This document shows, piece after piece, positions 1,372-55,789 of a DNA stretch of 64,000 nt (position 1 is the first letter of the stretch; the number at the start of each line of letters is the position of its first letter). The notes under the pieces are model-generated. The model ran no database searches and had not been told where the DNA came from. It saw only the letters and a list, made by a program, of their open reading frames with translations. Source of the DNA: Clostridia bacterium (GTDB lineage Bacteria > Bacillota > Clostridia > Oscillospirales > CAG-272); the NCBI GenBank assembly GCA_017472255.1, contig JAFUQU010000011.1, positions 1-64,000 on the forward strand. The letters run 5' to 3'. The translations under genes and the position numbers were made by a program.

Positions 1372-1431
1372 CGATCGTGCAACAATTTTGTACGATTATG
1401 TAAAGACATTCAAAAAAACCTGTGATATAAT
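1372..1431 (+). promoter_or_regulatory. Promoter with AraC-type direct-repeat operator for the glycosidase/AraC operon
   Basis: Two half-sites, CGATCGTGCAACA at 1372 and CGATTATGTAAAG at 1393, are spaced exactly 21 bp (two helical turns). The second runs into the -35 (AAGACA, 1403-1408). A 17-bp spacer leads to a perfect -10, TATAAT, at 1426-1431. The same arrangement recurs at 8874-8933 on the other strand. Direct repeats about 21 bp apart abutting a weak -35 are the classic layout for AraC-family activation; the natural candidate is the regulator encoded at 4156. Confidence 0.75.
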
Positions 1432-1463: not shown

Positions 1464-4154
1464 ATGCCGCGCATTGATCCGTTTTTTGACAAGCAGCCGC
1501 CGCTTACGTTTATCGACGAGCTGCGCACACCCATGTATCAGTCGGCGCCCGATGGATGGGGCAGCCGCGAAAGAAAGGAAGACGAAGTCGACGCGTCGGG
1601 GGTCTATATCGCAACGCCCTGCTTCGAGCCGCTTCTTGAAACCTCATGGGCTTCCTTCGCGCGTTTTGCGCATATATATAAAATAGAAGGAACCCGCTAT
1701 CCCGTCCGCATCACGCGCATCGTGACCGAGCATGCCGAGTCGTGGCGCGCCGAGATCATGCAAGGCGGCGTGCAGATTTCGGGCGACACCGAGGGCATCC
1801 GCCGCGCGCTCGTCTGGCTCGAGGACGAGCTTCGCCGCGCCGAGGCTCCCTATCTTGTGCCCGGCGTCACCGAGCGTCACGCCGTGATCCGCTCCCGCAT
1901 CACGCGCTGCTTCTTCAGCCCGATCAACCGCCCGCCGAAGTTCGGCGACGAGCTGTCGGACGATATCGACTATTATCCCGAGGAATACCTGAACCGCCTC
2001 ATGCACGACGGCTCGAACGGTGTGTGGATTTATACCCGCTTCTCCGATCTCATGGAGTCGTCGTTTGTCGAGAACTGGGGCAAGGGACGCGAATCCCGCG
2101 TCGAAAAGTTATGCCGCGTCATCGACAAATGCGCGCGCTACGGCATCGGCGTGTATGTGTTCGCGATCGAGCCGATGTCGATGTTCGCCGAGGATTTCGC
2201 GAAATGCCCCGAGATCGCGGGCGTGAAGTACCCCATCTACGAGTCCGGCTACGGCTATTCAGAAAAGCACTGCATCTGCGTCGAGTGTGACGAGGGACGG
2301 CAGTTCGTGTACGAATCCGGCAAGCGCCTGTTTGAAGCGGCGCCCGGACTGCGCGGCTTCATCAGCATCACCTACGGCGAGCGTCCCACCGCTTGCTCGT
2401 CGATGACACACCGCAAATGCCCGAAGGGAGCCTGCCCCGCGACCTGCGAGGGCGAGCTGCTTGCCGACAACGTGGCGGCGCTGCGCGCGGGCATGAAAGC
2501 CGCGAAGCCCGACTGCGAGGTCATCAGCTGGACGTACGGTCATCGCACATGGGAATTCGACGATATCCGCGATTACGTCGACCGCGCGCCGCTCGACGTG
2601 ATGCTGATGCAGAATTTCGACGATATGGGTTACGAGGAACAGCACGGCGTGATGCGCCAGTGCGTCGACTACTGGCTGTCCTACGTCGGACCGTCCGATC
2701 TGTTTACGATCACGGCAGAACAGGCGAAAAAATCCGGCAGGCACATGTTCGCGAAGATGCAGGTCTGCTGCTCGCACGAAATTGCGAGTGTGCCGTACGT
2801 TCCTGTGCCGGGCATCATTTACAAAAAATATGCGGGCGCACGCGATCTCGGCGTTGAGGGCGTGCTCCAGTGCTGGTATTTCGGCAACTTCCCGTCCATG
2901 ATGAGCAAGGCGGCGGGCGAGCTGTCGTTTGTCGAGCGATTTGACGACGAAAAAGCGTTCCTCACGTCCCTCGCGTCGATCTTCTGGGGACGCACGAACG
3001 CTGATAAAATCGCGGCGGCGTGGGGCTTATTCGAGGAAGCCTACCGCATGTATCCGATGAATGTCATGTTCAGCTATTACGGACCGATGCACGACAGCGT
3101 GGTCTGGAAGCTCGCGCTGGAGCCTAAGAATAACAAGCTCCCGCGTACATGGCAGACGCTCGATCCCATCGACGGCGACCGCATCGGCGAGAGCCTTCTG
3201 CAGGGGCACACGCTCGACGAAGCGCTGACGCTGGTTTCGGCGATGTGCGAAAAATGGCAGGCGGGACTTGACATTTTGACCGCTGTTCCCGTGACGGGCG
3301 GCGACATGCGCGAGCAGGTTTCCGTCGCGAAAGCCATCGGCGTGCTGTGGGACGGCACGCGAAACATTCTCGAATTCTACAAGCTGCGCCACGAGCTGGG
3401 ACTGTCTCTCGGCGACGCGCAGGCGAAGCTTTCGCGCATGGAAGCGCTCGTTTTAGCGGAGATCGAAAACAGCCGTGCGATGATCCCGCTCTGCGTTTCG
3501 GACAGGCGGCTCGGTTATCACTCCGAGGGCGAGGGCTACAAATTCTTCCCCGAAAAGCTGCTCGACCGAATCGCACAGCTCGAAGAACTGCTCGTGACCG
3601 AATTCCCGCGCGTGCGCGCACGCATCGATGCGGGACTCGCGCCGCTTGCGTATTATCTCGGCGAGACGGATGAAGTACACTACGCGATGGCGGCTGACAT
3701 CGAGGATGTCGCATGGGAGATGATCGGCGATAAGGCGAAATTCCGCGCGTCGCTCGACGGGCTCACGCTGACGCTCGATCTCGTTTCCGACACGCCGACA
3801 ACCTTCCAGCTCTGCCCCGAATTCAAGCTGTTCACGCCCGATCCCGTCGTGCACATTTCGCCCGACGGTACGGTAAGCTGCCGCAGCGGGATCGACGCGA
3901 AGCTCTACAATTCGCTTTTCGGCGAGCGGTATGCGGCGGAGCTTGCGAAATACGAAAATTCTTCCGCGATTGACGGCGGCAGACGGCTCACGCTCGATCT
4001 TGCCGACTTCGGCTTCACCGAGCCGCGCCCGTTTAAGTTCCGCCTTGCGGCTGGCGGGGTATCGTGGGTGAAGGACCCTGAATCGCTCGAAACGCTGGGA
4101 CTGTTCGGCGTGCGCGTCGGCGAATACGGCTGGATGATGCCGCCTAAAAAATAA
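1464..4154 (+). CDS. Putative cytoplasmic glycoside hydrolase, hexosaminidase-like architecture
   Basis: An 896-residue protein without signal peptide or membrane segments. Residues about 85-130 (GGVQISGDTEGIRRALVWLE) resemble the small alpha/beta domain that precedes the catalytic barrel in GH20/GH84-type hexosaminidases and GH67 glucuronidases. A barrel-like region begins near residue 135 (FFSPINRPPKFGDE). A cysteine-rich segment (CICVEC near 269, then CSSMTHRKCPKGACPATC near 311-328) could bind a metal or be disulphide-free structural cysteines, and is unusual. RBS CGGAGG sits 8 nt before the ATG. An AraC gene starts 1 nt after its stop, so both are probably one operon that acts on imported oligosaccharides. 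The family assignment is inferred. Confidence 0.6.
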   Translation: MPRIDPFFDKQPPLTFIDELRTPMYQSAPDGWGSRERKEDEVDASGVYIATPCFEPLLETSWASFARFAHIYKIEGTRYPVRITRIVTEHAESWRAEIMQGGVQISGDTEGIRRALVWLEDELRRAEAPYLVPGVTERHAVIRSRITRCFFSPINRPPKFGDELSDDIDYYPEEYLNRLMHDGSNGVWIYTRFSDLMESSFVENWGKGRESRVEKLCRVIDKCARYGIGVYVFAIEPMSMFAEDFAKCPEIAGVKYPIYESGYGYSEKHCICVECDEGRQFVYESGKRLFEAAPGLRGFISITYGERPTACSSMTHRKCPKGACPATCEGELLADNVAALRAGMKAAKPDCEVISWTYGHRTWEFDDIRDYVDRAPLDVMLMQNFDDMGYEEQHGVMRQCVDYWLSYVGPSDLFTITAEQAKKSGRHMFAKMQVCCSHEIASVPYVPVPGIIYKKYAGARDLGVEGVLQCWYFGNFPSMMSKAAGELSFVERFDDEKAFLTSLASIFWGRTNADKIAAAWGLFEEAYRMYPMNVMFSYYGPMHDSVVWKLALEPKNNKLPRTWQTLDPIDGDRIGESLLQGHTLDEALTLVSAMCEKWQAGLDILTAVPVTGGDMREQVSVAKAIGVLWDGTRNILEFYKLRHELGLSLGDAQAKLSRMEALVLAEIENSRAMIPLCVSDRRLGYHSEGEGYKFFPEKLLDRIAQLEELLVTEFPRVRARIDAGLAPLAYYLGETDEVHYAMAADIEDVAWEMIGDKAKFRASLDGLTLTLDLVSDTPTTFQLCPEFKLFTPDPVVHISPDGTVSCRSGIDAKLYNSLFGERYAAELAKYENSSAIDGGRRLTLDLADFGFTEPRPFKFRLAAGGVSWVKDPESLETLGLFGVRVGEYGWMMPPKK

Positions 4155-4155
4155 G

Positions 4156-5031
4156 ATGGAATTTCGGCTTCAGGAACTTTCTCATGTGCTGACGGTGACG
4201 CGCATCGCGAATCTGCACTATTTCGAGTTCACCCGCAAGTACCGCACCGTGCGCGACAAGCATCCGTTTTACGAGCTGCTTTACGTGGACAAGGGCGCGA
4301 TCACAGTCGAGGCGGAGCATTACAGCGGCAGACTCGCCGACGGTCAGCTGATCATCCACATGCCCTGCGAGGAGCATTCGCTGTCCTGCGACGACAGCGT
4401 CGGACCCAACGTGATCATCATCGGCTTTGAAGCGGACTGCGGGCGGCTGGCGGAATTTTCTCAGGTGCCGGTCACGCTCGACGGCATGCAGAAAAAGGAG
4501 CTTGCGGAGGTTTTAAAGGAGGGCATGAGCATCTGGGCGCCGCCCTATGACACGCCGTATCTTCCCGAAATGACCCGCCGCGCCGAGATTCCGTGGGGCG
4601 CGGAGGAGATGTTTGGGCACCGGCTTGAGATGTTTCTTCTGCGCCTGATCCGCGGCACGGAGAAAACCGCGTCCGGCGGCTCCGAGCCGCATACGGACAG
4701 CGCCCTGCTCGACAGCGTGAACCGCTACATCACCGAACACTACCGTCAGAAAATCACGCTCGACCAGCTCTGCCTGCTGTTCGGTATGAACAAAACGACG
4801 CTCTGCGCGGATTTCCGCGAGGCGTACGGCGAGTCGGTCATCAGCCGTGTGAATTCGCTGCGCGTCTCGGACGCGAAGCGCTTGCTTCGAGAAGGAAACC
4901 TGTCGGTGACGGAGATCTCCGACGCGGTCGGTTTCAGCTCGATCCACTATTTCTGCCGCATTTTCAAGCGCATCACCGGTCAGTCGCCCGGCGACTATGA
5001 GCGTACCGTACGCGCACGGCTGGATATTTGA
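4156..5031 (+). CDS. AraC-family transcriptional regulator with N-terminal cupin
   Basis: A 291-residue protein. The N-terminal ~150 residues (HPFYELLYVDKGAITVEAEH) look like the AraC cupin sensor fold, and the C-terminal ~95 residues hold two helix-turn-helix units (ITLDQLCLLFGMNKTTLCAD and NLSVTEISDAVGFSSIHYFC, then RRI-type end). It lies 1 nt after the glycosidase gene. The promoters of this operon and of the operon starting at 8838 share a 21-bp-spaced direct repeat, so it is the likely activator of both (inference). It presumably senses a sugar or sugar derivative. Confidence 0.9.
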   Translation: MEFRLQELSHVLTVTRIANLHYFEFTRKYRTVRDKHPFYELLYVDKGAITVEAEHYSGRLADGQLIIHMPCEEHSLSCDDSVGPNVIIIGFEADCGRLAEFSQVPVTLDGMQKKELAEVLKEGMSIWAPPYDTPYLPEMTRRAEIPWGAEEMFGHRLEMFLLRLIRGTEKTASGGSEPHTDSALLDSVNRYITEHYRQKITLDQLCLLFGMNKTTLCADFREAYGESVISRVNSLRVSDAKRLLREGNLSVTEISDAVGFSSIHYFCRIFKRITGQSPGDYERTVRARLDI

Positions 5032-5071
5032 ACGCAGAAAAGCTGCCCGAGAGGGCAGCTTTTCTGCGTTC
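5030..5071. terminator. Bidirectional terminator between convergent genes
   Basis: A 19-bp perfect stem (arms starting GAACGCAGAAAAGCTGCCC) has a GAGA loop, with A-rich and T-rich tracts inside both arms. It lies between the AraC gene (+) and the solute-binding protein gene (-). Confidence 0.85.
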
Positions 5072-5075
5072 ATGC

Positions 5076-6527
5076 TTATTCCTTTGTAAACGCCTCCACA
5101 ACCGCGGCGATGCGGGCTTTCGCGCCGTTTTCGCGGGTTGCGTAGAAGGTCGCGTAGCTCTCGTAGAACGCGTCCTTCGCCCATGCATTGCCGAAGCCGA
5201 GACCGTTCTCGTAGTTGTCGTAGCAGTACGAGAAGCTGATGGTTCTCGATGCGGTGATGATGTCGAGCATCGCCACCGATTCCTCGTCGCGCAGGTACTT
5301 GTTCTTGAGCGCGGTTTCGTAGTAGACGGGGATCAGCGTGTAGTAGCCCTCGGCGGACAGCGCTTCGATGATGATGCCCGTGCGGTCGAGATCCGACGCG
5401 AACTTCGGTACGCTGAACATGTGACCGCCGTTTGCCGCGTAGAAGGCGCGGTAGTTTTCCTGATTCTCGTCGTATTTCGGGAAGGGAACGATGCCGTATT
5501 CCACGTCAGCGTCGCGGTAGTGGTTCGCCGCGTCGGAGATCGTGCCGAACGCGAACAGTCCATTGCCGCCGATGAACATCGTGCGGATTTCATTTAAAAA
5601 TGCGCCGTTTTCAAACGCGTACACGCCGTCACTGCTGTTGTTCCAGTCGAAAATCTTGTCGAACGCCGAAACCATCTTGTCGGACAGCGCCACAAGCTCG
5701 ATTTTGTCGCCCGTTTTCTCCCATTCGGGGATGTTCAGCGCAACCGACCAGGCGTTGTGCGTCTGCGTAGTGAGCAGACCGTAAACGTCAGACTCGTCGC
5801 GTTCGCTGTTGCCGTTTTTGTCCTCGTAGATATCCTTGGTCATCGCGATCATTTTGTCAAGCGTCCACGCGCCGGAGGAAACCAGCGAATAGGGGCTTTC
5901 GAGCTTGTAGCTGTCAATCAGATCCTTGTTGAAGAAGAATACTTTGGTCTGTGCGAACTCGTCGTAGTGCATGTTGCTCGACGAGACGAACAGCTTGCCG
6001 TTGAAGGAGAGATCCTCTACGAGCTGTGCCGACCACCACGGCTTCGAAAAATCGAGGTACTCAAGGTCGTACAGGTTGACGAACATACCGGACAGCGACT
6101 GTCCCGTCTGATGCTTCGCGACGTTCAGAATGAGGTCGAACGCCTCGTCGCCCGCCATGATCGTGCGCTCGACAGCTTTGTCCATCTCGGTGACGTTTGC
6201 CGCGCCGCTGTCGACGTAGGAGAGCGTGACGTTAAAGCGTTCCTCGACGACGCGGTTGCGGCGATAGACCGCATCGTTGACGATGTCGCCGTTTTCGCTG
6301 TCGGGAACATACCGTTCACCGGCGCTTCCCCATGTGAAGAAGCGGAAGTTGTAGCCGCCGAAATCCTCCTCGGGCAGATCGTCCGGGATGCGGTTGTCGG
6401 TGGTGACGGCATCGGCGGAATCGGTACCGGTGGTGGTTTCATCGGACACGCCGGATGCTTCGCCGCATGCGGCGAGCGACGCGAGCATAGCAGTGAGTAA
6501 AAGTGTGGATGTCAGTTTCTTTTTCAT
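5076..6527 (-). CDS. Extracellular solute-binding lipoprotein (ABC-type, carbohydrate)
   Basis: A 483-residue protein. The signal peptide ends in the lipobox LAAC with Cys21, and a Thr/Asp-rich linker follows. The body has the bilobal family-1 binding-protein style (NRVVEERFNVTLSYVDSG, AGDEAFDLI, DIYEDKNGNSERDESDVYGL, GIVPFPKYDE). It is anchored to the outer membrane face to capture a ligand for import. It is the last gene of the M24-ASRT-creatininase run (30 bp behind the creatininase gene). No ABC permease or ATPase is adjacent, so it must use a distant or shared transporter. Closely similar proteins are encoded at 17132 and 54275. Confidence 0.88.
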   Translation of the reverse strand: MKKKLTSTLLLTAMLASLAACGEASGVSDETTTGTDSADAVTTDNRIPDDLPEEDFGGYNFRFFTWGSAGERYVPDSENGDIVNDAVYRRNRVVEERFNVTLSYVDSGAANVTEMDKAVERTIMAGDEAFDLILNVAKHQTGQSLSGMFVNLYDLEYLDFSKPWWSAQLVEDLSFNGKLFVSSSNMHYDEFAQTKVFFFNKDLIDSYKLESPYSLVSSGAWTLDKMIAMTKDIYEDKNGNSERDESDVYGLLTTQTHNAWSVALNIPEWEKTGDKIELVALSDKMVSAFDKIFDWNNSSDGVYAFENGAFLNEIRTMFIGGNGLFAFGTISDAANHYRDADVEYGIVPFPKYDENQENYRAFYAANGGHMFSVPKFASDLDRTGIIIEALSAEGYYTLIPVYYETALKNKYLRDEESVAMLDIITASRTISFSYCYDNYENGLGFGNAWAKDAFYESYATFYATRENGAKARIAAVVEAFTKE

Positions 6528-6557
6528 GTTTTTTCCTCTTTTTCTTTTAAATTATTC

Positions 6558-7298
6558 TTATTCCCCGAAAATACGCCGTTCGAGGTCGGCTTCGGACAGC
6601 GCCGCCATGCGCTCGCCAAGCTCGGCGTTTGCTTCCGCCGCCGATGCCGTGAACCAGTGCTTCACGTCGCCGAGCCGCTCAAGCTTGACTGCGTCGGGAT
6701 ACAGTGCCATTAGAAGCGAGCACTCGTACTTGCCCGCGTGATCGTAGCCCGTCGCGTTCTGCGCCTCGCGGCTCATCGCGGGGATGACCTTGATCCACGA
6801 GAACGGATCGCCCGCGCCGCCGAGGTTTTCGTAGTAGTCCGAGTAGCTCTCGTCGCCCCACCAGCCCTGACCGCGCGTCTTTTCGAGATACGCCATCTCC
6901 GCGCGGCGTGCGGCTTTGAGGTAGCAGAGCGTCATCGGCATCAGCGATTCCTGCTCGAACTGATGGTGGATGACAACGACGATGTTGCGGTTGCCTGCCG
7001 AGAGCAGGCTCATAAAGACGTGATAAACGTACTCCTCAAAGACGTTTTCTTCCACATGCACCGTGCCCGTCGTCTCGCCGCCGACCGCCCAGCTTGCGGG
7101 GCTGTAGCAGATCGAGGGTGCGTGAATCAGCTCGCGGCGCTCGGCGATGCGCTTCACAAGTCCTTCCGCGATCAGTGTGTCGCAGCCCAAGGAGCAGTGA
7201 GGTCCGTGATATTCCACCGTGCCGCCGACGATGACGAGCGGGATGTTATTCTCCCGCCCCGCCGCAATCTCACGGGGAAAAATGTGGTTGAGTTCCAT
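6558..7298 (-). CDS. Creatininase-family amidohydrolase
   Basis: A 246-residue protein of the creatininase/MftE metallohydrolase family. VEYHGPHCSLGCDT supplies the conserved Glu29, His31 and Asp40 metal ligands; an IHH motif near residue 111 and HAGKYECS near residue 188 match the later ligand positions. The canonical NGHGGN block is replaced by VIHHQFEQE, so this is a divergent member. Family enzymes hydrolyse cyclic or linear amides or deformylate nucleotides. Its neighbours (M24 creatinase-like, ASRT-like, binding lipoprotein) suggest uptake and hydrolysis of an amide- or amino-sugar-like compound, but creatinine itself is not demonstrated. Confidence 0.8.
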   Translation of the reverse strand: MELNHIFPREIAAGRENNIPLVIVGGTVEYHGPHCSLGCDTLIAEGLVKRIAERRELIHAPSICYSPASWAVGGETTGTVHVEENVFEEYVYHVFMSLLSAGNRNIVVVIHHQFEQESLMPMTLCYLKAARRAEMAYLEKTRGQGWWGDESYSDYYENLGGAGDPFSWIKVIPAMSREAQNATGYDHAGKYECSLLMALYPDAVKLERLGDVKHWFTASAAEANAELGERMAALSEADLERRIFGE

Positions 7299-7301
7299 AG
7301 T

Positions 7302-7679
7302 TTATTCTCCATACCCCAGCGTCGTGTAATACGCGAGATTGACCTGACGGTTGTCAAGGCGTCCGTACTGCACAACAATTTTTTCATCCGAATCCAGCTT
7401 CATCGCGTACTGCGTTTCAAACGGCACGACAACGCTGCACATGTCGTCGGTATTGTTCATGCGGAAGCAGCGTACGCGCTTCGCGCCGACCGTCCAGCGG
7501 ATCGTGTCAATGCAGCCGCGGTCGGTGAAATAGAGCGTCACCGCGATGGTCGCGTCACGGTCGCTGTCGTTGACGACGATCACCGACTCGTGACCCTTCA
7601 GCTCGCCTTCGCCGGGCGGCGGAAGCTCGCAGTCGGGGATGATCCATACCTTCTTTCCGATATCAGCCATCGATCTCAA
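7302..7679 (-). CDS. ASRT-family (sensory rhodopsin transducer-like) small-molecule-binding protein
   Basis: About 125 residues. MADIGKKVWIIPDCELPPPG at the start, ESVIVVNDSDRDATIAVTLY in the middle, and IVVQYGRLDNRQ with LAYYTTLGYG at the end match the Anabaena sensory rhodopsin transducer family (Pfam PF07100), whose bacterial members are proposed to bind small molecules, probably sugars. A TTG at 7679 has a GAAGGG site 5 nt upstream and overlaps the M24 gene by 17 nt; the ATG at 7670 is the alternative start. It is sandwiched between two hydrolase-type genes and has no rhodopsin gene nearby, so a metabolic sensor or binding role is more likely than photosignalling. Confidence 0.75.
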   Translation of the reverse strand: MRSMADIGKKVWIIPDCELPPPGEGELKGHESVIVVNDSDRDATIAVTLYFTDRGCIDTIRWTVGAKRVRCFRMNNTDDMCSVVVPFETQYAMKLDSDEKIVVQYGRLDNRQVNLAYYTTLGYGE

Positions 7680-8838
7680 TGATTCCCTTCTTGAGATATT
7701 CGGTCATCGACTCACAGCCGTCCTTGGTGACTGCGATGCCCTTTTCCCAGCGCACGCCGAAGGTCGGTCCGGAGATGAACGTGTCGACCTGGAAGGTCAT
7801 GTTTTCTTCGAGCTTGTAATCGCTGATCGTCTCCATCCACGGAGCCTCGACCTCGATCATGCCGGTGCCGTGGCAGGGACCGTAGACGAAATTGTCCTTC
7901 ATGCCATTGTCGCAGTAGAGCTTGTAGAAGTCCTTCGCGATGTCGCTTGCTAAAACGCCCGCCTTGATTCTCGATTCGGTCCACTCATGTGCGTAGTGGC
8001 AGAATTCGACGATCTTTCTGCGCTCACCCTCAAGTCTTCCCATAACGACAGGCAGACCGATGGACGGGGAATAGCCGTCGATCTTCGCGGAGAGGTTCAG
8101 CTGAACGATGTCGCCCTTGCCGATGGTGCGGTAGCGGGAGCGGCTGATCGCGTGGCGGGTGGAATCCTCGGAGAAGACGTACATGGGCAGACCCTCGTAC
8201 TCCGCGCCCTCCTCGTAAATCACGCGCTGAGCAACGCCGACCATCTGCAGCTCGGTAACGCCGGGCTTCAGATTGCGGATAACCTCGTCGGTTGCAAGCT
8301 CGATGATGCGGAATCCCTCGCGGATGCAGGCAAGCTCGTTTTCGCTCTTGATCTTGCGAAGCTCGATCATGATGTCGTTGCACTTGACGATTTCCGCCTT
8401 CGGATACGTGTCGCAGAGACCCTCGTAAATCGGGAGCGTACACTCGACGTAGCTGCCGAGACCGATCTTTAGGCAGTCGCCGGAAACGCCGATTGCCTTG
8501 AACACATCGCGGAAGGTGTCAGCCTTCAGCTCGGGATAGGACGGGTCAGCCGACTCGCGGAATTCCTTCAGCTCGAAAACCTTGTCGAGCTTACCGAAGT
8601 CCTTCGCGAAGATCGCGGACTCGGGACCGCAGATCAGCGCCGCGTCGCCGTTTGCGGAAATCGCAACGCCTGCGCGCTCGAACAGCGGCCAGAAGCCGCT
8701 GAAATAGCGGGCGTTTGCGTAATCGGACTCGGTGCTTGCGACGAGCATCACGTCAAGACCGCGCTCGCGGATGAGCTTTGCCGCCTTCGCGATGCGCTCG
8801 GCATACTCGTAATCGGGGATACAAACTCTGTTTTGCAT
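7663..8838 (-). CDS. M24 pita-bread-fold protein, creatinase/Xaa-Pro peptidase-like
   Basis: A 391-residue protein with an N-terminal creatinase domain (1-160) and a C-terminal pita-bread domain (YAHEWTESRIKAGV, CHGTGMIEVEAP, VRWEKGIAVTKDG). Canonical M24 peptidases coordinate two metals with two Asp, one His and two Glu. Here the two Asp sites read QLNLSA and GYSPSIG, and one Glu site reads FQVDTF, so the metal site is largely lost, as in the metal-independent enzyme creatinase. It leads a four-gene minus-strand operon. Its RBS is GGAGGT 9 nt upstream, and its promoter carries the shared AraC-type repeat. The substrate is unknown; a C-N hydrolase on a guanidino- or amide-bearing compound is plausible. 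Confidence 0.8.
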   Translation of the reverse strand: MQNRVCIPDYEYAERIAKAAKLIRERGLDVMLVASTESDYANARYFSGFWPLFERAGVAISANGDAALICGPESAIFAKDFGKLDKVFELKEFRESADPSYPELKADTFRDVFKAIGVSGDCLKIGLGSYVECTLPIYEGLCDTYPKAEIVKCNDIMIELRKIKSENELACIREGFRIIELATDEVIRNLKPGVTELQMVGVAQRVIYEEGAEYEGLPMYVFSEDSTRHAISRSRYRTIGKGDIVQLNLSAKIDGYSPSIGLPVVMGRLEGERRKIVEFCHYAHEWTESRIKAGVLASDIAKDFYKLYCDNGMKDNFVYGPCHGTGMIEVEAPWMETISDYKLEENMTFQVDTFISGPTFGVRWEKGIAVTKDGCESMTEYLKKGIIEIDG

Positions 8839-8873: not shown

Positions 8874-8933
8874 ATTATACCATAATAATTTTCCGATGTC
8901 TTTGCAGAATCATACCGGATTTTTGCACGATCG
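8874..8933 (-). promoter_or_regulatory. Promoter with the same AraC-type direct repeat, for the M24 operon
   Basis: On the minus strand, half-sites CGATCGTGCAAAA (8933-8921) and TGATTCTGCAAAG (8912-8900) are 21 bp apart. The second overlaps the -35 AAGACA (8902-8897), followed by 17 bp and TATAAT (8879-8874). The repeat phase, -35, spacer and -10 are the same as at 1372-1431. Confidence 0.75.
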
Positions 8934-9009: not shown

Positions 9010-9046
9010 GGGGCTGTTGCACTAAGGTGCAACAGCTCCTTTTTTA
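9010..9046. terminator. Terminator hairpin
   Basis: GCTGTTGCAC (9013-9022) pairs perfectly with GTGCAACAGC (9027-9036), with flanking T/A runs on both sides. It is an orphan with respect to intact genes on either strand, and marks the edge of the remnant region 9060-9900. Confidence 0.65.
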
Positions 9047-9062
9047 GAGATTGCCGCTTACA

Positions 9063-9150
9063 TTAAAACAAATATTTTCTGAAAAACTGCTCAAGCTCGT
9101 AATAGGCAGTCGGTACGCTTTCATAGGTGATGCCGAGCGACTTGCAGGAT
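9063..9150 (-). pseudogene. C-terminal scrap of an unknown protein
   Basis: The minus strand reads CKSLGITYESVPTAYYELEQ and six more residues to a TAA. No start or body is found. The family is not recognised. It is one of several truncated 3' ends between 9.06 and 9.9 kb. Confidence 0.3.
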
Positions 9151-9174
9151 ACAAAGATATGACCGCTGTGTGGA

Positions 9175-9304
9175 TGTTATGACCCGGTTGCTCCAGAAAT
9201 ATGGGCATCAGGTTTTGGATAAATTAAAGCAGGATGCTCCGCAAACGGTGGAGTGTTCCAAGGATGATATGAAAGCGCAGTCTTTAGTGGATAAGGCTGC
9301 GTAA
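9175..9304 (+). pseudogene. C-terminal scrap of an unknown, probably mobile-element, protein
   Basis: The plus strand reads VMTRLLQKYGHQVLDKLKQD and continues to SLVDKAA and TAA near 9304. It has no start and opposes the scrap at 9063. I could not assign a family; its position beside recombinase debris suggests an integrative-element origin. Confidence 0.3.
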
Positions 9305-9316
9305 AAATTCACAATT

Positions 9317-9367
9317 TACACGTTGCGTATTTTCTGTAACTATGCTATAATAAATACGCAACGTGTA
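9317..9367 (+). promoter_or_regulatory. Promoter bracketed by a 15-bp perfect inverted repeat
   Basis: TACACGTTGCGTATT (9317-9331) and its exact complement AATACGCAACGTGTA (9353-9367) flank a promoter. The -35 TTGCGT (9323-9328) lies in the left arm, a 17-bp spacer follows, and -10 TATAAT is at 9346-9351. The right arm covers the transcription start. This is a textbook autorepression layout for the small DNA-binding protein that follows. Confidence 0.7.
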
Positions 9368-9391
9368 TTTTTGTTTTTGGGAGATAAGCAG

Positions 9392-9622
9392 ATGGATTGT
9401 AAAAACAGAATTATAAAGTTGCGGGAAAGCACAGGATTAATCCGGAAGGACTTTTGCAAGCTCGTCCATATCCCATACCGGACGATGACTGAGTGGGAAC
9501 TGGATAACCGCCATGCGCCGGATTATGTGCTTAGACTTTTGGAATATTATATCCGCAACGAAGGATTGATGGTAAAAGAAATGAACGAGGGAGGTGGCGA
9601 TTCTGAAAAAGTAGCAACTTAA
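9392..9622 (+). CDS. Small XRE-like helix-turn-helix regulator
   Basis: A 76-residue protein from the ATG at 9392 (GGGAG site 8 nt upstream). IIKLRESTGLIRKDFCKLVH followed by IPYRTMTEWELDNRHAPDYV matches short XRE/Cro-like HTH proteins of Clostridia that often act as antitoxins or autoregulators. The promoter upstream is enclosed by a 15-bp inverted repeat, which supports autoregulation. No toxin-like partner follows: the next sequence is a recombinase remnant. The earlier in-frame ATG at 9323 lies in the promoter and is not the start. Confidence 0.7.
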   Translation: MDCKNRIIKLRESTGLIRKDFCKLVHIPYRTMTEWELDNRHAPDYVLRLLEYYIRNEGLMVKEMNEGGGDSEKVAT

Positions 9623-9877
9623 ATGTTATCTATATACGAGAGTGCATTTGATGAAGTCTACAATTCCGCAACGGAAGCAGAGCAGAAAGAGTTTATGAAA
9701 GCCTTCATCGAGAGAATTGAGATGTTCCCGGAAAAGAGGAAAGACGGTAGCTGGATAAAGAAGATCGTATTCAATTTCCCTGTGCCTGTTGAGGGCTAGA
9801 AAGTGAAAGAGCTTCCCTTGGAAACTGAAACAACCGTCGAGACGGTATGTTTATTGTCCAAACTCAATAATAAGTAA
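9623..9877 (+). pseudogene. C-terminal remnant of a large serine recombinase
   Basis: KEFMKAFIERIEMFPEKRKD with IVFNFPVPVEG and, past an in-frame TAG at 9797-9799, KELPLETETTVETVCLLSKL is the C-terminus typical of serine site-specific recombinases of Clostridia integrative elements. The catalytic N-terminus is missing and a stop interrupts the tail, so it is dead. It shows that an integrative element was once here. Confidence 0.7.
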
Positions 9878-10531: not shown

Positions 10532-11277
10532 AAAACGCATACGAACAACTTTACATAGACTGCCTGTCTCAGGACACATTTCTGACCAGCGCCCATTTTG
10601 CGGCGATGAAGGGGCAGTATTACGACGTCGCCGGGCTGCGGTTTCTGCTGATCGGGCGCGCGGCCAACGGATGGGGACGGCTCGATACCGCCAGCGCCAA
10701 AGCCTTCGGCGAGGACGCGGTGCGCCAGTTTGGCGATTACGGCCGGTGGGACTGGATTGAGTCGGTGAACGGCGTTCTGTACAACGCCCACGACAGGGAT
10801 AAAAGCGTAAAAAGCAAACGTTACTGCATCGACAGAAAGCCGTTTTGGAGCTATGCGAAGGCAGTGTGGCAGAGCTTCGGACAGGCTCCGTATACCGGGG
10901 ATGTCTGGATGAAGAACATCGCGTGGTCAAACCTGTACAAGGTTTCGCCGTTGAACGGCGGCAATCCGGCTCCGCGTATGCTGAAAGCGCAGCAGGCTGC
11001 CTGCATTGAAATCGTAAAGCAGGAGCTTGCGCTCCTGCATCCGACACATATTCTGATAATGACGGGCTTTGATTGGTTCGCGCCCTTTTCGCCCCTGTTT
11101 GACCATGTGCGCAGACTGGATGAACCACGCCCCGCCTGTGTGGAGGGAACCGCTTCCTATGGCGGTGCAAAGGTCGTTATAACCTGCCGACCGGAATATC
11201 GGGATAAAAAACGCTTCCTCGCCGACACCGCCGAAGCCTTCGGGCAGTCTCACCTCGCCGCCCGTTCGGATAGCTGA
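10528..11277 (+). CDS. Conserved hypothetical protein, possibly uracil-DNA-glycosylase-like fold
   Basis: A 249-residue protein from the ATG at 10528, whose ATGA overlaps the stop of the rRNA-methyltransferase remnant; upstream in-frame starts lie inside that remnant and are rejected. GLRFLLIGRAANGWG, WMKNIAWSNLYKVSP and LHPTHILIMTGFDWF give an alpha/beta pattern reminiscent of the uracil-DNA-glycosylase superfamily (an early I-G motif, then N-x-x-K and a late HP-T-like loop). The assignment is tentative. Its 3' end overlaps the convergent phosphatase gene by 28 bp. Confidence 0.6.
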   Translation: MKNAYEQLYIDCLSQDTFLTSAHFAAMKGQYYDVAGLRFLLIGRAANGWGRLDTASAKAFGEDAVRQFGDYGRWDWIESVNGVLYNAHDRDKSVKSKRYCIDRKPFWSYAKAVWQSFGQAPYTGDVWMKNIAWSNLYKVSPLNGGNPAPRMLKAQQAACIEIVKQELALLHPTHILIMTGFDWFAPFSPLFDHVRRLDEPRPACVEGTASYGGAKVVITCRPEYRDKKRFLADTAEAFGQSHLAARSDS

Positions 11278-11888
11278 TCGTCCAGATGCCCATTATCGCC
11301 GACCCGCAGCAGCTTCACGTTACCGTGATCATACTCCGCCACCGTCACCGACGCATTGGGCACGTTCGGCATATCAGCCATCTCCTCCAGCGGAATGTGC
11401 TGCCATTCGCAGAGCAGGGCGCGGATTGCGCCGCCGTGGGAGGCGATGACCACCGTCCGCCCGTCGTTTTCGGCGGCGATGCGGTCAAGCTCGGCGGAGA
11501 TTCGACGGCGCACCTCGGCGAAGTTCTCGCCGTCGCCGCAGCGCGACTCCCCGATGTTCGCGCTGTAAAACGCAAAACCCTCGGGATAACGTTCCCGAAC
11601 CTCGTCAAAGGTCAGCCCCTGCCAATATCCCACGTCACGCTCACGAAGCGCTCGGCTGGTCTGTATTTCCAACCCCAGCGCGTCCGCCAGCGGCTTTGCT
11701 GTCTGGTACGCCCGGCTCAGATCGCTGGAATAAATCGCGTCAATTTTGAAATTTTTCGCCACATACGCGGCGGTTTGCTTGGCCTGCTGTACGCCGACCT
11801 CGTCCAGCGGAACGTCGCACTGCCCGGTGAAACGTCGCTCCTTATTGAACTGGCTGAACCCGTGGCGGATTAGAATAAATGTCACCAT
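11250..11888 (-). CDS. Histidine phosphatase (phosphoglycerate mutase-like)
   Basis: A 212-residue protein with the catalytic RHG motif at residues 8-10 (ILIRHGFSQFN), ERDVGYWQGLTFDEV for the acidic residue, and the second histidine in IASHGGAIRA near residue 149. This is the branch-1 histidine phosphatase superfamily (cofactor-dependent mutases, CobC-like and broad phosphatases). The substrate cannot be assigned. It is divergent from the MBL hydrolase at 11977. Confidence 0.88.
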   Translation of the reverse strand: MVTFILIRHGFSQFNKERRFTGQCDVPLDEVGVQQAKQTAAYVAKNFKIDAIYSSDLSRAYQTAKPLADALGLEIQTSRALRERDVGYWQGLTFDEVRERYPEGFAFYSANIGESRCGDGENFAEVRRRISAELDRIAAENDGRTVVIASHGGAIRALLCEWQHIPLEEMADMPNVPNASVTVAEYDHGNVKLLRVGDNGHLDDQLSERAAR

Positions 11889-11976
11889 TTTTATGTAACC
11901 TCGCTTGATTGAAGTACCATCATTATACCACAGATCGGGCGGGATTGCAAGAACATATTTTTAGGAGGATATTATC

Positions 11977-12753
11977 ATGACCTACAATCTCACTTTCCTT
12001 GGCACCTGTGCCGCCAACTTCTCGAAAAAGCTGCAAAACGAATGCCGGGACTGCTTCGATAAGGACGCGCGCCGGGCATCCTGCGTGCTGTTCAACGAGC
12101 GCTTCCTCATCGACTGCGGTCCCCACGCCCTCGATTCCATGCGCATCGCCGGGGTGAATCCCGGGCAGATCACCGATCTGTTCCTTACCCATCTCCACGA
12201 CGATCACTTCAACCCCGACAACGTTCAGACGGTAGCAAGCGCCGCCCAGCGTCCGCTGCGTGTCTGGGTGTCCGCCGACGCCAAAATGCCCCCGCTGGAG
12301 AACGTCGTCATCATGCCCATGGAGCCGCGCACCACACTGACGGTCAACGATGAGCTGACCGTCACCGGCCTTGCCGCCAACCATGCCCCGGAATCTTATC
12401 CCCAGCACCTGCTGTTCGAGCGGGAAGGGAAGAAGTTCCTCTATTCCTGCGACGGCGGCTGGTTCCTGAACCCTTCCTTCAACTATTTGAGAAAATCCGG
12501 GCTGGCGCTTTGGGTGGTGGACGCCACCTGCGGCGATTATGAGGGCGATTTCCGCATGGCCGATCACAACAGCATTCCCATGATCCGCCTTATGCTCCCT
12601 TCGATGCGTACCATCGGCGCGATCAACGACGACACGCAGGTTTACCTCTCCCATATCGCGCCCTCGCTGCACAAATCCCACGATGAGACGGTGGAAATTG
12701 TGAAGCCCTCCGGGCTGCACGTGGCCTATGACGGGCTGGTGCTGTCGGTATGA
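11977..12753 (+). CDS. MBL-fold metallohydrolase (PhnP-like)
   Basis: A 258-residue protein. THLHDDHF (72-78) is the HxHxDH di-metal motif; GTCAANFSK near the start, HAPESYPQHLL and YSCDGGWF supply later ligands. It resembles PhnP/YycJ-type phosphodiesterases and other small-molecule hydrolases. RBS AGGAGG is 9 nt upstream. Its last codons overlap the YdeI-like gene by 4 bp (ATGA), so translation is probably coupled. Confidence 0.85.
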   Translation: MTYNLTFLGTCAANFSKKLQNECRDCFDKDARRASCVLFNERFLIDCGPHALDSMRIAGVNPGQITDLFLTHLHDDHFNPDNVQTVASAAQRPLRVWVSADAKMPPLENVVIMPMEPRTTLTVNDELTVTGLAANHAPESYPQHLLFEREGKKFLYSCDGGWFLNPSFNYLRKSGLALWVVDATCGDYEGDFRMADHNSIPMIRLMLPSMRTIGAINDDTQVYLSHIAPSLHKSHDETVEIVKPSGLHVAYDGLVLSV

Positions 12754-17085: not shown

Positions 17086-17093
17086 AAAATGAA

Positions 17094-17119
17094 GCTGTTG
17101 CACCTTAAAGTGCAACAGC
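17094..17119. terminator. Terminator between convergent genes
   Basis: GCTGTTGCAC pairs with GTGCAACAGC around a 6-nt loop. The stem sequence is the same as in the hairpin at 9010-9046. Confidence 0.7.
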
Positions 17120-17131
17120 CTCATGTGATTA

Positions 17132-18604
17132 TTACTTGCCCCAGTTTTCGGTCAGTTTTTCAAGGTCGCTTCGGATTGCGTCCTCGTTCGCCGCTACTGC
17201 CGATGCGACGGTGCCAGTCTTTTCCCAGATTGCAGCGTTGACCTCAGTCATCAGGTCTTTGCCAATGCTGAAAATCTGATAGTACAGCGGAACCAGCGAA
17301 TCAGTGATAATCTCCAGCATTTCGATGGATTCCTCGTTGCGAAGTCCCTTCTGCTCCACGGAGATTTCGCGGAAGACGGGAACTACGCTCTTTTCGCCCT
17401 CGTAAGTCAGGGCGTCCAGAATCAGACCGACCTTCTCGGGATCGCTGCTGGTTACGGGAATCATCGCGCCGGTAGCGCCATACCAGGAGTTGCTGTAATA
17501 ACGATCCTGGGATTCGTCATACTTCGGGTAGGGAACGATGCCGAATTCAAATTCCAGATCGCGGAACCCGCGGAATTTGTTCACCTCGGACATGGCCATC
17601 AGCGTGCGTCCGGAACGGAATACCGTGATGTAGCTGCCGTCCTCGCTGTCTGCCGTCTCACCCTTGTATACGCGGGCGTCGGTGAGCGAGATGATGCTGG
17701 ACAGCTTTTCGATCAGATTATAGAAGCGCTCGCTGGCGCCGTTGTAAACCAGATTTCCGTCCTGCTGCTCGAAGATCAGCTCGCCTGCGCCGATGATGAA
17801 GCTCTCCGAATTGGTTTTGTGATGGGTGTAGCCGTAGGTCGCCTTGCCGTCTTTGTTCCATGCCACTGAATCGTCGCCGTTCAGATTGGCGGCGGCTGTG
17901 TTGTATTGATTGAACGCATCCAGCGTCCACTTGCCTTCGCGCACCAGATCGTAGGGAAGATCGAGCTTCAGATTTTCCATCATATCGTAGTTGAAGGCGA
18001 TCAGGCGGATGCCGTCATGAATCAGCAGGTTAGAGCCGCCCGCCGCACTGTAAAGCGCGCCGTTGATCGTGATAGCGTCGTTGAAGCTCTGGTACCACCA
18101 GGGCTGATCGAGCTGTACGGTGTCGATGTCGTACAGATTGAAGAAATATCCCTCTGAAATCAGAGCGGCGGAGCCTGCCATGGGAATGTACATCAGATCG
18201 TAGGTATCGTCGCCCGCCAGAATCGTGGTCTGCGCCACGCCTGCCAGCGTCTTGAATTCCCAGTCGTCTTCGATGATCGTTTCCTTGAGAGTAATATCGA
18301 ATTTGGATTCGATCAGGCGGTTGCGGTTGTAAATCGCGTCATCCAGCGTTTCGCCGGTGATTTCTTCACGTTCTATGACGGACATCATGCCGTACATATC
18401 GTGCATATTCAGAATGTTGAATTCCTCTCCGCCGTAACCCTCGGCGGGATAGGGGTAGGAATATTCGCCAGACGCGGAGGTGCCGTTTGACGTCGTGGTA
18501 TCACCGCTAGCTGTCGTATCGCCGCCGGATTGGGTTGAGCCACAGGCGCTCAACGTCTGCGCTGCCAGTACGGCGAGAAGGATCAGGGTAATTGCTTTTT
18601 TCAT
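17132..18604 (-). CDS. Extracellular solute-binding lipoprotein (carbohydrate)
   Basis: A 490-residue protein with signal peptide and lipobox LSAC (Cys21), then a Ser/Thr/Gly-rich linker. Family features match the gene at 5076: NRNRLIESKFDITLKETIIE, AGDDTYDLMYIP, FGIVPYPKYDES, and the C-terminal block LRNEESIEMLEIITDSLVPL. It should capture an oligosaccharide at the cell surface. An AraC gene diverges from it at 18792, and the region between holds a 21-bp tandem repeat. No permease genes are adjacent. Confidence 0.9.
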   Translation of the reverse strand: MKKAITLILLAVLAAQTLSACGSTQSGGDTTASGDTTTSNGTSASGEYSYPYPAEGYGGEEFNILNMHDMYGMMSVIEREEITGETLDDAIYNRNRLIESKFDITLKETIIEDDWEFKTLAGVAQTTILAGDDTYDLMYIPMAGSAALISEGYFFNLYDIDTVQLDQPWWYQSFNDAITINGALYSAAGGSNLLIHDGIRLIAFNYDMMENLKLDLPYDLVREGKWTLDAFNQYNTAAANLNGDDSVAWNKDGKATYGYTHHKTNSESFIIGAGELIFEQQDGNLVYNGASERFYNLIEKLSSIISLTDARVYKGETADSEDGSYITVFRSGRTLMAMSEVNKFRGFRDLEFEFGIVPYPKYDESQDRYYSNSWYGATGAMIPVTSSDPEKVGLILDALTYEGEKSVVPVFREISVEQKGLRNEESIEMLEIITDSLVPLYYQIFSIGKDLMTEVNAAIWEKTGTVASAVAANEDAIRSDLEKLTENWGK

Positions 18605-54274: not shown

Positions 54275-55789
54275 ATGAAAAAGCGTCTCATTTCACTCGC
54301 AGTATTATTGTCCTTCGCCATGTCCATGACCTCGGTCATTACGGCGTGCAACGGCACCGAGCCATCTGTGGACGACACCACCCCGTCCGGCGGCGATGTT
54401 ACCAGCACCCCCGCCACCGAAACCGATTCCAAGTTTGAACCGGACGATCTGCCCGCCAACCTGAATTTCGACGGCGAGACGATTAACGTGCTCTACCGCG
54501 ACGACGTGGTGAAATCCTTCTATGTGGAGGAGCAGACCGGCGATATCGTGGACGACGCCGTTTACAATGCCAACCGCGCCGTGGAAGACCGGCTGAACAT
54601 AAAGTTCAACGTGACCACCAAGGCCGGTACCGCCAACGCCGACCGTTCAACCTACATGAACGCCATCACAACCAGCGTTATGGCGGGAGACAACGCCTAT
54701 GACCTGACAGCGGTGATGACCTTTAATATGCCCACGCTGATTCAGCAGGGTGTGTTTATTGATCTGAACGAGGTGCAGTATCTCAATTTTGACAAGCCCT
54801 GGTGGGTTCAGGATCTGACAGATCTGGCGTCCATTAACGGCAAGCTCTACTTCGCGTCCGGCGATATCACGCTGGAGCTGACCCAGCGCATTTTCTGTAT
54901 GCTGTTCAATAAGAATCTGGCTGAAACGCTGGGCACCGAGGATATCTACGCTCTGGTCAAGGACGGCAAGTGGACGCTGGATAAGGCGACGGAACTGGCT
55001 GTGGCTGCTTACGCCGACCTGAACGGCGATTCCAAAATGGATCCCGAGGACCGCTACGGACTGGTTATCACTGACTATAACCACATTTCCGGCTTTGAAG
55101 GTTCGCTGGGACTTCAGGAAACCACGCAGGATGCGGACGGTATCCATCACATTGATTTCGGCGGCGAGCGGGTGATTACCGCTTTCCAGAAGCTGGTGTC
55201 GATGATCAGCGACAATGATGGCATCTACTACCAGATTAAATCTGACGCGGACAGCAATGAGACTCATCAGATATATTACAATATGTTCAAAGGCGGTCGT
55301 CTGCTGATCACAACCACCGAATTCCACCAGATCAGCTCGGTTTACCGCGACATGAACGACGATTACGGCGTGATTCCTTATCCAATGCTGGACGAGGAGC
55401 AGGGTGGCTATTACACGCTGGCGCGGAACGTTTACAGCTCCTTCACCATCCCGAAGACCTGCGAAAAGCTGGATGCAGTGGGCGCGGCTATGGAAGCGCT
55501 GGCGTCCGAGAACTACCGCACCACTTCGCAGACCTATTTTGAGACAGCGCTGAAGGTGAAGTATTCCTATGACGACGAAACTTCTCAGATGTACGATATT
55601 ATCAAAGGCGGTCTGACGTTCAATTTCGGTTTCACATTCAATGCTGTTACCAACTACTTCTCCAGTCTGATCGTCAACACGCTCGTTAAGAAAGAGGCAA
55701 ACTGGGCATCCGTTTATGCGTCAAACAAGGATGCGGCTGAAAACAGCCTTCAGAAATTCTATTCCGACGTTATGGCGCTGGAAGACTGA
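54275..55789 (+). CDS. Extracellular solute-binding lipoprotein (carbohydrate)
   Basis: A 504-residue protein with signal peptide and Cys near residue 24 (VITAC), then a Thr/Ser/Asp-rich linker. Family blocks: NANRAVEDRLNIKFNVTTKA, AGDNAYDLTAVM, DLNGDSKMDPEDRYGLVITD, DYGVIPYPMLDEE. RBS CAGGAGG 9 nt upstream. Same family as the genes at 5076 and 17132. No permease genes follow; the next gene is on the other strand. Confidence 0.9.
   Translation: MKKRLISLAVLLSFAMSMTSVITACNGTEPSVDDTTPSGGDVTSTPATETDSKFEPDDLPANLNFDGETINVLYRDDVVKSFYVEEQTGDIVDDAVYNANRAVEDRLNIKFNVTTKAGTANADRSTYMNAITTSVMAGDNAYDLTAVMTFNMPTLIQQGVFIDLNEVQYLNFDKPWWVQDLTDLASINGKLYFASGDITLELTQRIFCMLFNKNLAETLGTEDIYALVKDGKWTLDKATELAVAAYADLNGDSKMDPEDRYGLVITDYNHISGFEGSLGLQETTQDADGIHHIDFGGERVITAFQKLVSMISDNDGIYYQIKSDADSNETHQIYYNMFKGGRLLITTTEFHQISSVYRDMNDDYGVIPYPMLDEEQGGYYTLARNVYSSFTIPKTCEKLDAVGAAMEALASENYRTTSQTYFETALKVKYSYDDETSQMYDIIKGGLTFNFGFTFNAVTNYFSSLIVNTLVKKEANWASVYASNKDAAENSLQKFYSDVMALED

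Follow-up and report, generated by a model that had tools for sequence, protein, structure and literature searches.

A conserved M24-ASRT-creatininase gene set in a probable carbohydrate-utilisation regulon of gut Clostridia

What does an operon do in which genes of the creatinase-like M24 family and the creatininase family flank a gene for an ASRT-domain protein, next to a glycoside hydrolase-like gene and a regulator? The question is raised by a locus near the start of the window, by which we mean the whole 64,000-nucleotide stretch of Clostridia bacterium contig JAFUQU010000011.1 that was analysed. Four open reading frames lie on the minus strand, just where the first-pass annotation had placed them. 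They encode an M24-family, creatinase-like protein of 391 aa (7663-8838), an ASRT/ASRAH-domain protein (PF07100; 7302-7670) of 122 aa from its ATG or 125 aa from an upstream TTG, a creatininase-family metallohydrolase of 246 aa (PF02633; 6558-7298) and, as the final gene of the operon, an extracytoplasmic solute-binding lipoprotein of 483 aa with a lipobox-like LAACG (5076-6527). Pfam backs the first three, and the lipoprotein matched no Pfam family. With the ASRT start at the ATG at 7670, the M24 and ASRT genes overlap by 8 bp, and the gaps that follow are 3 bp (ASRT-creatininase) and 30 bp (creatininase-lipoprotein), which are so short that a single transcript is likely for all four genes, as had been proposed. 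Convergent to this operon, on the plus strand, are a gene for an 896-aa glycoside hydrolase-like protein of the hexosaminidase/glucuronidase superfamily (1464-4154) and, 1 bp after it in the same orientation, an AraC-family regulator gene (4156-5031; HTH_18, E 7.2e-19). Where the AraC and lipoprotein genes converge, sequence reading identified the inverted repeat aacgcagaaaagctgccc-gaga-gggcagcttttctgcgtt (5033-5072), which is probably a bidirectional terminator between the two gene groups.

Relatives of the locus were collected by an M24-alignment scan of one genome per species, which gave 257 stretches encoding relatives, and the best 80 of the 257 loci were kept. These 80 are labelled almost throughout as uncultured Clostridia or Oscillospiraceae, many with names that denote the gut of ruminants or other herbivores, and the evidence as a whole is drawn mostly from metagenome bins of gut bacteria. 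Their genes were mapped with a codon-usage gene caller, in which errors are possible; longest-ORF calling was dropped because it was misled by antisense frames. By blast, the 80 M24-selected loci contain 80 M24, 74 creatininase, 70 ASRT and 60 AraC-like relatives, and 14 of the loci also encode a hydrolase related to that of the window. The M24, ASRT and creatininase genes are contiguous in 62 of the 80 contigs and the first two in 70, while the order divergent AraC, M24, ASRT, creatininase occurs in 36, and in most orthologous loci an AraC-cluster relative lies near the M24 gene or is divergent from it. The gap between the M24 and ASRT genes is at most 30 bp in 60 of 70 loci, and in 30 of the 70 they overlap. 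The first-pass annotation had tied its case to whether orthologues of these genes are ever adjacent elsewhere. For the M24, ASRT and creatininase genes they are, and we can conclude that the three form a real conserved unit. Searches of plasmids found only distant relatives of the three. In two loci (L064 and L065, ~11200-12314), a 372-aa GH28-like protein stands between M24 and creatininase in place of ASRT, and blast found no ASRT in either.

The lipoprotein had been taken for a conserved partner in the operon, which it is not: its relatives appear in 1 of the 80 loci by blast, and it is one of about 90 paralogous matches (91 counted) to a lipoprotein of ~490 aa in the 3-Mb genome, mostly full-length and 28-38% identical, and it was accordingly ruled out as a core member. 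The window alone contains three copies (5076-6527, 17132-18604 and 54275-55741), the first two with no permease gene beside them.

The two gene groups of the window share a promoter element. An alignment of the M24 promoter with the hydrolase promoter extends over 120 bp and scores 43, where shuffled sequence reaches 15 at most, and a 37-bp matrix trained on the promoters of M24 orthologues places a site upstream of 61 of 78 M24 genes, above the maximum for shuffled upstream sequence (6.7 bits) and in most cases with a TATAAT-like box downstream. The site is a direct repeat whose halves are phased at 21 bp and which adjoins the -10 box; a spacing of 21 bp, or two helix turns, is usual for AraC-family half-sites. 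A repeat search on each promoter alone yielded nothing because the repeat within the site is imperfect. When the matrix was rebuilt from 62 orthologous M24 promoters with both window sites left out, it detected operator 1 upstream of the hydrolase gene (1373-1409, plus strand, 34.9 bits) and operator 2 upstream of M24 (8896-8932, minus strand, 25.3 bits), each followed 16 nt downstream by a -10-like TATAAT (1426-1431 and 8874-8879, respectively). The next best score on either strand of the 64 kb was -0.6 and the maximum in Markov-shuffled windows (n=3, one strand each) was -7. Both sites are thus far above chance, and the earlier suggestion that a shared operator links the hexosaminidase-like gene to the M24 operon is borne out. 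A looser pattern, searched with up to 3 mismatches (a threshold that would miss weaker sites), matched exactly these two sites in the 3.04-Mb genome (86% complete), and the reversed pattern matched none.

A related AraC gene is present in 59 of the 78 tested contigs, and the operator and a same-cluster AraC gene are both present in 57 of the 78 loci, both lacking in 15 and discordant in 6 (Fisher P 1e-10, although the loci are phylogenetically related and such P values overstate independence). Judging from this co-occurrence, AraC is apparently the protein that binds the operator, and the combination of a linked AraC gene with a conserved, phased direct-repeat promoter site predicts AraC-type control of the operons. 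Additional operator sites in other genomes precede genes for GH3-type, DUF4432, DUF4838/GH67N-like and GHL6 proteins, for a secreted protein that contains a copper-amine-oxidase-N domain, and for an SIS-like protein (by sequence reading only); operator-bearing genes elsewhere encode chiefly carbohydrate enzymes.

Fold comparison ties the 896-aa protein of the window to glycoside hydrolases. It matched no Pfam family, but its AlphaFold2 model (pLDDT 76.8) shares its overall architecture with GH20, GH84, GH67, GH115 and GH138 at ~8-13% identity. Foldseek ranks GH138 first, then GH20 and GH67, whereas with VIA-align GH67, GH84 and GH20 come out level at Z ~20. The label hexosaminidase-like is therefore sound at the level of the superfamily and no finer. 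Among related ARRANGEMENTS, the hydrolase relative in L221 (48% identity) follows the creatininase gene on the same strand inside the M24 operon, and in L059 the hydrolase relative, followed by AraC, is divergent from the M24 operon. Other neighbours of M24 loci encode GH1, GH28, GH38, GH78, GH88, apiosidase-like and melibiase-like proteins as well as sugar-type ABC permeases, and in a single-contig genome (G324) the trio is surrounded by LacI, M20 and two ribose-type ABC transporters (all but M20 named by sequence reading). Many trio loci have no adjoining carbohydrate gene. Overall, the genomic context agrees with the sugar-related role first proposed, but the glycoside hydrolase partners differ too widely to point to any one sugar. 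The substrates considered were amino-sugar lactams, uronates, rhamnogalacturonan-II sugars and nitrogen-bearing plant glycosides, and the evidence singles out none of them.

The reading we prefer, with a probability of roughly 0.6, is that two operons, glycoside hydrolase-araC and M24-ASRT-creatininase-binding lipoprotein, make up a carbohydrate-utilisation regulon at this locus, and that its M24-ASRT-creatininase core acts on a glycan- or glycoside-derived small molecule. It builds upon the observed conservation, gene order, operator, metal-ligand loss, ASRT pocket change and glycan-related partners. An AraC-family activator would probably act at one conserved site per promoter, next to the -35 region, and the core would work inside the cell on a small molecule set free from glycans or glycosides of plant type. 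The M24 protein, whose pita-bread fold is creatinase-like but lacks the metal site, would most likely carry out a hydrolytic or ring-opening step, with the ASRT protein as its ligand-binding partner and possibly a subunit of the same complex, and the creatininase-family metallohydrolase would perform a second hydrolysis. The regulon most likely contains an undescribed C-N or ring-opening step. In the open-access literature we found no described pathway with this gene set, which agrees with the first impression of the locus. For a gene set that is widespread in herbivore gut Clostridia and so far unexplained, these results supply a regulator, an operator and a regulon, which allows a direct search for the sugar that induces it.

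The ASRT protein is a secure member of its family (PF07100, E 3.1e-31, 108.3 bits against a gathering score of 25), but not of the TM1070/ASR-transducer type, whose SHEshChhN pocket signature (PMC2739507) includes both H and C. Its own signature, GHESVIVVN, keeps the H and N and lacks the pocket C, which the subfamily signature GHESVI[VI]VN replaces. The pocket of TM1070 holds ethanediol, contacted by the cysteine (PMC2739507). As in the ASRT/ASRAH neighbourhoods described by De Souza, Iyer and Aravind in 2009 (PMC2739507), the window protein is a stand-alone PF07100 domain in a sugar-related operon and a predicted small-molecule binder, but the main text of that paper names no creatininase or M24 partner for ASRT. 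When sampling began from the ASRT family, PF07100 was found in 63 of 341 genomes of the class. Among the loci selected in this way, an M24 gene lies within 2.5 kb of 32 of 39 ASRT genes without the cysteine and of 0 of 28 Cys-type genes (P ~1e-12), where one of the 32 (L195) should not count because its metallo M24 is ~1 kb off on the other strand, the Cys-type loci are mostly short (~3.3 kb) and would miss more distant M24 genes, and the related phylogeny of the samples again makes P overstate independence. M24-paired ASRTs lack the pocket cysteine that ASRTs in other sugar operons retain, a regularity that looks new and that turns the puzzle of the free-standing ASRT into a testable claim, namely that one subfamily of ASRT accompanies M24 proteins that lack the metal site. 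Another contig (C15) of the same genome carries a second, Cys-type ASRT (L046, 7258-7629) in a different sugar context, adjoining short-chain dehydrogenase-like and Gfo/Idh-like genes.

According to the 2009 family proposal, ASRT would be a free-standing intracellular sensor that binds a sugar metabolite and modulates enzymes or a transporter, leaving the M24 protein and creatininase independent of it. We regard this as a serious contender at somewhat less than even odds, since ASRT-family proteins do occur in varied sugar operons and the TM1070 pocket does accommodate a ligand. Against it, the non-Cys ASRT tracks metal-free M24 proteins through several subfamilies even as the identity of the third enzyme varies: beyond the trio the pair is found beside PTE, M81, M19 or M20 family genes instead of creatininase. 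The M24 and ASRT genes also mostly overlap or abut, although a sensor could show the same pairing. Our preferred reading, with ASRT as the partner of M24, can be taken further: a metal-free M24 and a Cys-less ASRT might form a two-subunit enzyme in which the beta-sandwich completes the active site and which, together with a hydrolase that can vary (creatininase, PTE, M81 or M20 family), would catalyse a so far undescribed reaction on molecules derived from glycans or glycosides throughout the Clostridia. This extension is tentative and on balance doubtful. It has a gut glycoside precedent in the C-glycoside deglycosidases of the DfgAB/DgpBC type (PMC8563793), which pair a catalytic subunit with a small beta-sandwich subunit and bind the substrate at the interface, but their catalytic subunit is a TIM barrel rather than an M24 protein and the likeness to M24-ASRT is one of analogy only.

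The M24 protein itself contains Peptidase_M24 (PF00557, E 2.4e-22) and Creatinase_N (PF01321, E 2.1e-9), both above gathering scores, and prolidases are among its best sequence and structure matches. It could therefore be supposed to be an ordinary Xaa-Pro peptidase in an operon for peptide or glycopeptide use, and the M19, M20 and M81 peptidase-family partners found elsewhere would suit such a role. However, the five ligands D,D,H,E,E of the M24 metallopeptidases (prolidase/aminopeptidase P) are not in place: in an alignment with prolidase, the window protein has N248, S259, H323, D352 and E365, so that both aspartates are gone and the first glutamate has become an aspartate, while H323 and E365 are kept. 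The metal aspartates are lost in every ASRT-paired M24 inspected (as N/S, G/T, A/I or Q/S variants), one glutamate is replaced by aspartate in the ASRT-type M24s examined (by cysteine in L235), and only the M24 of L195, which is not operon-linked, keeps the full set. This makes the peptidase explanation improbable. The absence of M24 metal ligands from ASRT-paired M24 proteins in all subfamilies examined also looks like a new regularity.

The fold of the M24 protein does not choose among prolidase, creatinase and the ectoine hydrolase DoeA because its AlphaFold2 model (pLDDT 76.4) aligns about equally well with all three (Z 29-32). The matches to creatinase (1chm, 7yto; Z 30.7-31.0) and DoeA (6twk, 6yo9; Z 29.0-29.9) are full-length, covering ~355 residues at Z 29-31, ~18-21% identity and an rmsd of 4.2-4.6. 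With PF00557 and PF01321, a creatinase alignment and lost ligands, the protein has the makeup of a creatinase-like, metal-free pita-bread protein. Creatinase and DoeA work without the M24 metal pair, and we predict that the window protein does too, although it differs from both in being paired with ASRT and in belonging to a glycan regulon.

The creatininase-family protein is a clear member of its superfamily (PF02633, E 5.6e-28, 98.4 bits against a gathering score of 31.3). Residues E29, H31, D40, H112 and E115 and the motif DHAGxxExS are invariant in 8 orthologues, and we take the five residues to be the equivalents of E34, H36, D45, H120 and E122 of creatininase. The metal ligands and EHGG..ETS-type motif of P. 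putida creatininase (1j2t, 3a6e) are thus conserved, but the protein falls far short of the equivalog thresholds for creatininase, MftE and IolN, with 64.2 bits against 235 for the creatininase equivalog TIGR04448. A creatinine pathway, in which creatininase would yield creatine for cleavage by M24, was rejected as very improbable despite the names of the two superfamilies, the conserved metal and DHAG motifs and the creatinase alignment at Z ~31, given the equivalog score, the ~20% identity of M24 to creatinase, the glycoside hydrolases in the regulon and the lack of any described ASRT role in creatinine use. The first-pass annotation had likewise argued against creatinine, and the gene set points instead to an undescribed step in plant-sugar digestion. 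Its suggestion of an amide- or guanidine-bearing substrate is undecided; C-C hydrolases (IolN) as well as lyases (DddP) are also built on these folds. An anti-phage system was considered as well and set aside, PADLOC having returned no match.

Fragmentary reading frames flank both operons (1-1000 and 9100-9870), one of which (9624-9800) resembles a recombinase C-terminus when read by eye. From these flanking frames, the two operons may constitute an island moved by mobile elements. Similar GCTGTTGCAC...GTGCAACAGC hairpins occur upstream of the M24 operon (9010-9045) and where another lipoprotein gene ends (17089-17120), and these are possibly a repeated terminator or a small mobile repeat.
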